DNA of 64,000 bases, from assembly GCA_944323695.1 (NCBI GenBank), contig CALUTI010000009.1, positions 1 to 64,000 of the forward strand, read 5' to 3'. Below the pieces are notes generated by a model. It was not told the origin of the DNA. It worked only from the letters and a program-made list of their open reading frames with translations, and did not search any database. The DNA is from Candidatus Gastranaerophilales bacterium. Lineage in GTDB: Bacteria; Cyanobacteriota; Vampirovibrionia; Gastranaerophilales; Gastranaerophilaceae. This document shows, one piece after another, positions 13,274-59,357 of the stretch. The first letter of the stretch is position 1. Each line of letters begins with the position of its first letter. The translations under genes and the position numbers were made by a program.

Positions 13274-13281
13274 GTTAATAC

Positions 13282-13639
13282 TACATAAACAATATTATGG
13301 GTATCTTTTTGTTCACTTTTTCTTTTTGTTGCGATGCAAAAAGAAAAAGTGAACCGAAAAAGAAAAACACGCGTGTTTACTTGCAATCCTTCGGATTGCT
13401 CAAGCCCTGACGGGCGCACATCCGTGCCGTTGCAAGCTGACGCTTGCAATCGTTCACCGCGCCTATAATCACGGCGCGGAGCCGGCATAGCCGGCTTTAA
13501 CGGGGTGGCAGGGGTGTCCCCTGCTCACTCGGTCATTTCGGTCGCGTGTTTCTCTTTCTTTTGCAAGCATTTTCTTTCTCTTTGCTTCGCAACAAAGAGA
13601 AAGAAAATGCTGATAGATACTGATAATATTGTTTATGTA
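13282..13639. repeat. Hairpin-rich mobile repeat, copy 1 (358 bp)
   Basis: Ends are inverted repeats (TACATAAACAATATTAT, 17 bp perfect, then GTATC after two mismatches). Just inside each end is a perfect 18-bp stem with 8-nt loop: 13311-13328/13337-13354 and 13567-13584/13593-13610. Between them are six short perfect hairpins (stem starts 13383, 13404, 13430, 13457, 13481, 13509). It is distinctly richer in G+C than its surroundings and has no convincing gene. A second copy is at 58885-59323. Confidence 0.85.
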
Positions 13640-13644
13640 AATAA

Positions 13645-58740: not shown

Positions 58741-58884
58741 TTAATTTTTTCCTTCTTAATTTATTTACACTGTCAGAATACAACCGCCGCTTGTCGCATT
58801 CCTGGAATAAAGCTAAGAGGAATCGCCTTTTCCAAGTTTATATAACCACAAACCCGTTCAATAATCAAGCCTGATGTTACAAAA

Positions 58885-59323
58885 TTACATAAAATATGTT
58901 ATAGTAACCTTTTGTTCACTTTTTCTTTTCTTGTTTGCTCGCGTTAAACGGGACTGCAACGCCGTCGCCAACGCGCCGCCGTTTCGCCCTCTGCTCGCAA
59001 TCCGCTTTGTTGCGATGCAAAAAGAAAAAGTGAACCGAAAAAGAAAAACACGCGTGTTTACTTGCAATCCTTCGGATTGCTCAAGCCCTGACGGGCGCAC
59101 ATCCGTGCCGTTGCAAGCTGACGCTTGCAATTGTTCACCGCGCCTATAATCACGGCGCGGAGCCGGCATAGCCGGCTTCAACGGGGTAGCAGGGGTGTCC
59201 CCTGCTCACTCGGTCATTTCAATCGCGTGTTTCTCTTTCTTTTGCCAGCGTTTTCTTTCTCTTTGCTTCGCAACAAAGAGAAAGAAAATGCTGAAATATA
59301 CACTGATAACATATTTTATGTAA
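58885..59323. repeat. Hairpin-rich mobile repeat, copy 2 (439 bp)
   Basis: Same element as 13282-13639, with about 75 extra bases inserted in the left 18-bp stem region (58935-59010). The internal hairpins (CAATCC/GGATTG, GCCC/GGGC, GCCGGC/GCCGGC, CAGGGG/CCCCTG) are kept. The ends read TTACATAAAATATGTTAT and pair perfectly with each other for 18 bp, though they differ from the ends of copy 1. It lies just upstream of the FliI-type gene. Confidence 0.85.
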
Positions 59324-59328
59324 AAAAG

Positions 59329-59357
59329 TTGTCCGATATCGAATTCTTCATTATAAT
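59329..59357 (+). promoter_or_regulatory. Promoter of the FliI-type ATPase gene
   Basis: TTGTCC, 17-nt spacer, TATAAT, ending 7 nt before the ATG at 59365. Starts 6 bp after the mobile repeat ends. Confidence 0.7.

Follow-up and report, generated by a model that had tools for sequence, protein, structure and literature searches.

The window analyzed here (the whole 64,000-nucleotide stretch) belongs to the genome of a Candidatus Gastranaerophilales gut bacterium (G000, 1.73 Mb in 19 contigs) and contains two copies of a repeat element with complementary ends. One copy, at 58885-59323, lies directly upstream of the promoter-like site of a gene encoding a FliI/YscN-family ATPase, and the other occurs at 13281-13640. 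Among named records, the sequences nearest to this ATPase come from Candidatus Gastranaerophilales genomes. In the former the terminal arms comprise 18 bases, TTACATAAAATATGTTAT (58885-58902) being 100% complementary to ATAACATATTTTATGTAA (59306-59323), and in the latter TACATAAACAATATTAT (from 13282) pairs with ATAATATTGTTTATGTA (to 13639). As stated in the preliminary description, the arms of both copies pair perfectly with their own opposite ends despite their different sequences. ACATAA and TTAT are common to both copies and the six bases between them differ (AATATG versus ACAATA); further differences are located only farther inward or outward. The features of both copies are as follows.

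58882..58909, - strand: left dif-like site of the 58885-59323 copy, read on the - strand as GGTTACTATAA CATATT TTATGTAATTT, with the 11-6-11 layout of the chromosomal dif (XerD-like arm 58882-58892, centre 58893-58898, XerC-like arm 58899-58909)
58910..59298, no strand: interior of this copy, non-coding and strongly self-complementary, built of hairpin modules that are exchangeable; its orientation is opposite to that of the orthologous insertion in L084/L085
59299..59326, + strand: right dif-like site of this copy, TACACTGATAA CATATT TTATGTAAAAA; on the + strand the left and right centres are reverse complements of each other (XerC-like arm 59299-59309, centre 59310-59315, XerD-like arm 59316-59326)
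59329..59357, + strand: promoter-like site of the FliI/YscN-family ATPase gene, which lies downstream
13278..13305, - strand: left dif-like site of the 13281-13640 copy, GATACCCATAA TATTGT TTATGTAGTAT
13306..13615, no strand: interior of this copy, in which the module at about query positions 46-121 of the 58885-59323 copy is absent
13616..13643, + strand: right dif-like site of this copy, GATACTGATAA TATTGT TTATGTAAATA

The interior folds far better than shuffled sequences as a single strand and is modular, whole hairpins being missing or added in some copies. The element in the window contains only overlapping open reading frames of no apparent significance and so carries no gene; no Rfam family matched above the gathering score, the best sub-threshold match lying under its cut-off, and searches of phage and plasmid collections with the element returned zero matches. 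About two dozen copies, together with pieces, are found in G000. Single modules also stand alone, with no clear dif-like ends (G000:C4:75695-75820 and C7:78094-78265), and may move or persist separately. Many contigs of G000 (C2, C3, C8, C10, C12, C13, C16, C17 and C18) break off within element copies; the element is one of the main causes of the assembly breaks in this genome, and its copy number there is probably underestimated.

Dif-like end sites and candidate recombinases

From inside to outside, each end of the element is a 28-bp site in which a 6-bp centre separates two 11-bp arms, the inner one ending in ATAA and the outer one starting with TTATGTAA; bacterial dif sites are laid out in this way. 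The two end sites are inverted, with the XerC-like arms facing inward and the XerD-like arms outward. One clear candidate for the chromosomal dif of the host, TATACCTATAA TATATA TTATGTAAGAA, was located at G000:C2:75869-75896; the same candidate (GATACCTATAA TATATA TTATGTAAGAA or a close variant) occurs in the same context in six genomes of the genus, namely the host and five others, and its core was seen once in several more. The core pattern TTACATAANNNNNNTTAT is present 32 times in the 1.73 Mb of G000, compared with 0 for the reversed control pattern, and its count is near the control level in genomes of the genus with few or no elements. Both ends contain complete 11-6-11 sites like the host dif in inverse orientation and, judged by their sequence, the terminal arms are two inverted dif-like recombination sites and not simply the stems of a hairpin.

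A second unit of about 110 bp, with the arm CAGGCAGATAA, is bounded by directly oriented dif-like sites and often adjoins the large element; it occurs at G000:C10:279/389, C2:250268/250378, C3:178590/178700 and C6:108794/108904. By analogy, this unit resembles a CD module and could be excised as a circle.

Orientations of the segment between the inverted sites were read from assembled metagenome genomes, so that the evidence is comparative, and at one and the same locus the segment is present both ways round. When the window locus was compared with that of the relative L085, the ATPase was 98% identical and the flanks were collinear, and the arms and interior aligned in reverse; GTAACC and GTGTAWATTTCAGC, inner sequences specific to this locus, are shared by both genomes and point to a single insertion with a subsequent flip. 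The cleanest inversions were found between L321 and L333 and between L319 and L327, where flank identity is 95-98% and where, only with the interior inverted, the 20 bases inside each site all match. L264 and L272 also have opposite interior orientations with breakpoints in the sites, L271/L279 represent a further inversion pair, and G014 and G010 carry the element in opposite orientations at the C6:108794 locus. Inversion is indicated as well for L325/L332 and L324/L334, with more divergent interiors, and the orientation was kept in L322/L331, L084/L085 and L324/L335. Since orientations differ between relatives and the breakpoints fall inside the sites, the segment most likely flips by site-specific inversion.

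A larger rearrangement was observed around a 6.3-kb gene segment which in G000 lies between elements (C8:89-6677 together with C13:50-77). In G014 this segment occupies a different place and is accompanied by no elements (G014:C6:269500-276300 and C4:143066-143555 were compared), and the flanks it has in G000 adjoin each other in G014, G015 and G003. Its placement possibly reflects rearrangement at dif-like sites or assembly.

With respect to the enzyme involved, G000 encodes XerC/XerD-type recombinases of 304 and 285 aa, and the recombinases shared by every genome examined are this Xer pair. Based on the similarity of the end sites to the host dif, XerC/XerD are probably the enzymes acting on the element. 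Other tyrosine recombinases are also present in element-rich genomes. G000 contains short XerA-like proteins of 176-179 aa; one of them, of 179 aa, is encoded in the window itself (49-585, - strand), comprises the catalytic domain only, and is related to XerA/XerC models with scores far below the cut-offs, and two more are found in the genome. As these proteins have a size like that of invertases, a dedicated short tyrosine invertase could make the flips instead of XerC/XerD. This option is improbable: the arms of the end sites match the host dif, and in G014, an element-rich genome with clear flips, no short invertase-type recombinase was found, the tyrosine recombinases besides the Xer pair being three longer ones. 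The short recombinases were set aside on account of G014.

Matched centres and the inversion model

The preliminary description proposed that base changes in the two arms are compensated. For a wider set of copies, end pairs were taken from G000, from the ATPase-promoter locus across the family and, within the genus, from further loci, leaving out pair L139, whose centre had been one of its selection criteria. Over the 35 pairs, which are not all phylogenetically independent because some loci are orthologous, within-pair identity at the 6-bp centre was 0.943 versus 0.595 with partners shuffled, and 0 of 20000 shuffles reached the observed value. The corresponding figures were 0.429 and 0.388 for the variable XerC-arm positions 1-7, and 0.537 and 0.547 for the distal XerD-arm bases (24-28). 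Matching of the centres persisted when every pair holding TAGTTT, the commonest centre, was removed, and also when composites were paired by their nearest instead of their outermost site. When candidate pairs at the ATPase locus were formed by their constant bases only, 11 of 17 had identical centres, compared with 2.8 expected from shuffling. Because TAGTTT prevails in recent copies many pairs are uninformative, and the match is not universal, most mismatched pairs being off by one base and a few by two (for example C4:170879/171370, TATTTA/TAGTTT). In composites the outer centres (AATATA) are several bases away from the inner TAGTTT, a difference that slow drift alone explains poorly and to which uptake of the target centre at insertion may contribute. 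The terminal arms are kept matched in each insertion, as had been suggested, in that centre identity is far higher within pairs than between them; the compensated block itself is narrower than first described, spanning exactly 6 bp within a fixed frame. Co-variation limited to the recombination overlap is the expected trace of a tyrosine recombinase, not of hairpin copying.

The reading favored here, with a probability of about 0.8, is that a host tyrosine recombinase, most likely XerC/XerD, flips this non-coding, modular repeat of the chromosome between its inverted dif-like sites, and that these flips keep the centres matched. In dif-module terms the element is a "C module", that is, inverted dif-like sites with the XerC-like arms facing in, and recombination of the two end sites by the host enzyme would invert the segment between them. 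In each flip, the top strands would be exchanged at the border of the XerC arm and the centre, and the bottom strands at the border of the centre and the XerD arm. If two inverted sites have centres a and b, b would then stand at both ends of the recombinant + strand and a at both ends of the - strand; as each chromosome strand would hold one centre after the flip, a single replication round would yield b/b and a/a daughters, perfectly matched with no repair step. Directly oriented sites would retain the a/b combination. A point mutation in one centre would be copied to the other end or erased at the next flip. We infer the strand-swap origin of the matched centres from this strand book-keeping; inversion alone can account for the compensated changes and makes hairpin repair unnecessary. 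In Acinetobacter, inversion was seen between sites whose spacers are identical or differ by one mismatch (PMC13141974), so the tolerance needed by the model exists. Conservative insertion by an integrase was also considered as a source of matched ends and was rejected, since the 6 bp would then be repeated in direct and not in inverted orientation.

The arms might alternatively be target DNA, the element inserting where a palindrome, for example a terminator or a regulator site, already exists. At the C6:108794 locus of G000, empty relatives contain TGTACACAA AATATC TTAT, which is near the filled TGTACATAA and AATATA TTAT, and a few element-free relatives at the ATPase locus have TTACATAA/TTATGTAA-like dyads. 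Other empty sites contradict this as a general rule: at the ATPase locus (L126, L133, L134 and L141) both arms are missing and one TTTTGTTAACAAATTG-like box is present, at the 13278 locus both arms are absent in five empty relatives (G014, G015, G006, G008 and G013), and the same arms are found at many unrelated loci. Insertion into ready-made palindromes, which had been put forward earlier, is accordingly considered unlikely; empty sites already containing both arms were encountered neither at the ATPase nor at the 13278 locus, and weakly at C6:108794. In the latter, the full comparison is between AAAATGTACACAA AATATC TTATTTATTCC in empty relatives and AAAATGTACATAA TATATT ... AATATA TTATGTAAATC in filled ones; one arm and a similar centre pre-exist in the empty site, the right side keeps its polarity, and no target-site duplication was seen. 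Filled relatives at the ATPase locus look as if about 8 bp had been duplicated. L083 resembles a clean empty site for the window locus and may instead be a deletion scar.

The region just upstream of the FliI/YscN-family ATPase promoter (59329-59357 in the window; L083-L252) is occupied in many family members by varied inserts whose ends are dif-like and inverted, which indicates a recurrent or long-lived insertion site. A broader scenario can be outlined tentatively and is considered rather unlikely in its entirety: a non-autonomous chromosomal element family would use the host machinery for chromosome-dimer resolution to spread as well as to flip at tens of loci, the 6-bp centre of the target being taken up on insertion and passed to both ends by the first inversion. 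The evidence for uptake of the target centre comes from one locus, G000:C6:108794.

Copying of one arm onto the other during replication, through hairpin- or quasipalindrome-templated correction or hairpin-primed repair, was another mechanism suggested for the matched ends, and the arms are able to pair in an element that folds well as one strand. It is given very little weight, because matching does not extend beyond the 6-bp centre and adjacent bases that could equally form the hairpin are unmatched: site positions 1-7 and 24-28 agree at most marginally more often than in unrelated copies, and in the 58885-59323 copy 0 of the 7 bases just inside the co-varying block pair. Neither are orientation flips with breakpoints at the sites predicted by hairpin correction. 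It is equally doubtful that an assembly artefact or ordinary homologous recombination between copies produced apparent inversions; the copies are repetitive, several contigs end within them and their interiors share modules, but orientation was read at the joins of unique flank and XerC-side arm over a 28-bp site that one read can span, the joins of the clean cases match to the base on both sides, and arms of about 18 bp are too short for efficient homologous recombination.

Relation to known modules and mobile elements

The nearest known kind of element is the dif module (pdif module) of Acinetobacter plasmids, with which the layout of the end sites was compared (Table 1 of PMC13141974). Both have 28-bp sites of the XerC-6 bp-XerD type inverted at the two ends, with XerC-inward C modules, inversion where the spacers match, and neighboring directly bounded units (CD modules). 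The Gastranaerophilales element differs in being dispersed on the chromosome as a non-coding hairpin mosaic with tens of related copies and centre-matched ends, whereas Acinetobacter modules are mostly gene-carrying, form clusters with C and D in alternation, and can carry a different spacer at each end (PMC13141974, PMC12907356). Gene-free dif modules have been reported, though gene-carrying ones are usual in Acinetobacter. The alternation of C and D in clusters, typically on plasmids, was not found here; the units are dispersed, chromosomal and of C type, sometimes with one 110-bp directly bounded unit, and none of the plasmid records was similar to the element.

Short inverted repeats and a segment in both orientations are also features of switches operated by tyrosine recombinases, such as cwpV of C. 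difficile and mba of Ureaplasma, the inversion of the latter being linked to Xer-like recombinases in one study (PMC3599477). These switches control one gene, whereas the present family of repeats flips at many loci. Xer-integrative mobile elements such as CTXphi share the dif-like ends and the dependence on host recombination, which is presumed for the present element. CTXphi-type elements insert at dif and end between directly repeated sites, unlike the present elements, which occur at many loci and between inverted sites. The NIME/dRS3 elements of Neisseria, MITEs and BIMEs are likewise small, non-coding, modular and intergenic, with short terminal inverted repeats; the end repeats of these families are not known to be host dif-like sites. 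Literature searches on repeats of Gastranaerophilales/Melainabacteria or on dif-like MITEs retrieved nothing relevant, which is weak evidence of absence as subscription papers were mostly outside their scope.

These observations provide a simple way to account for compensated changes between terminal inverted repeats without invoking an RNA or DNA hairpin, since inversion by a tyrosine recombinase would equalize the overlaps in one generation, and the six-base centre would also be a record of which site pairs have recombined. They suggest that gut Gastranaerophilales have, in the form of a large repeat family on the chromosome, biology like that of the dif modules, which are known chiefly from plasmids of Acinetobacter; this family may reshuffle intergenic regions at many loci.
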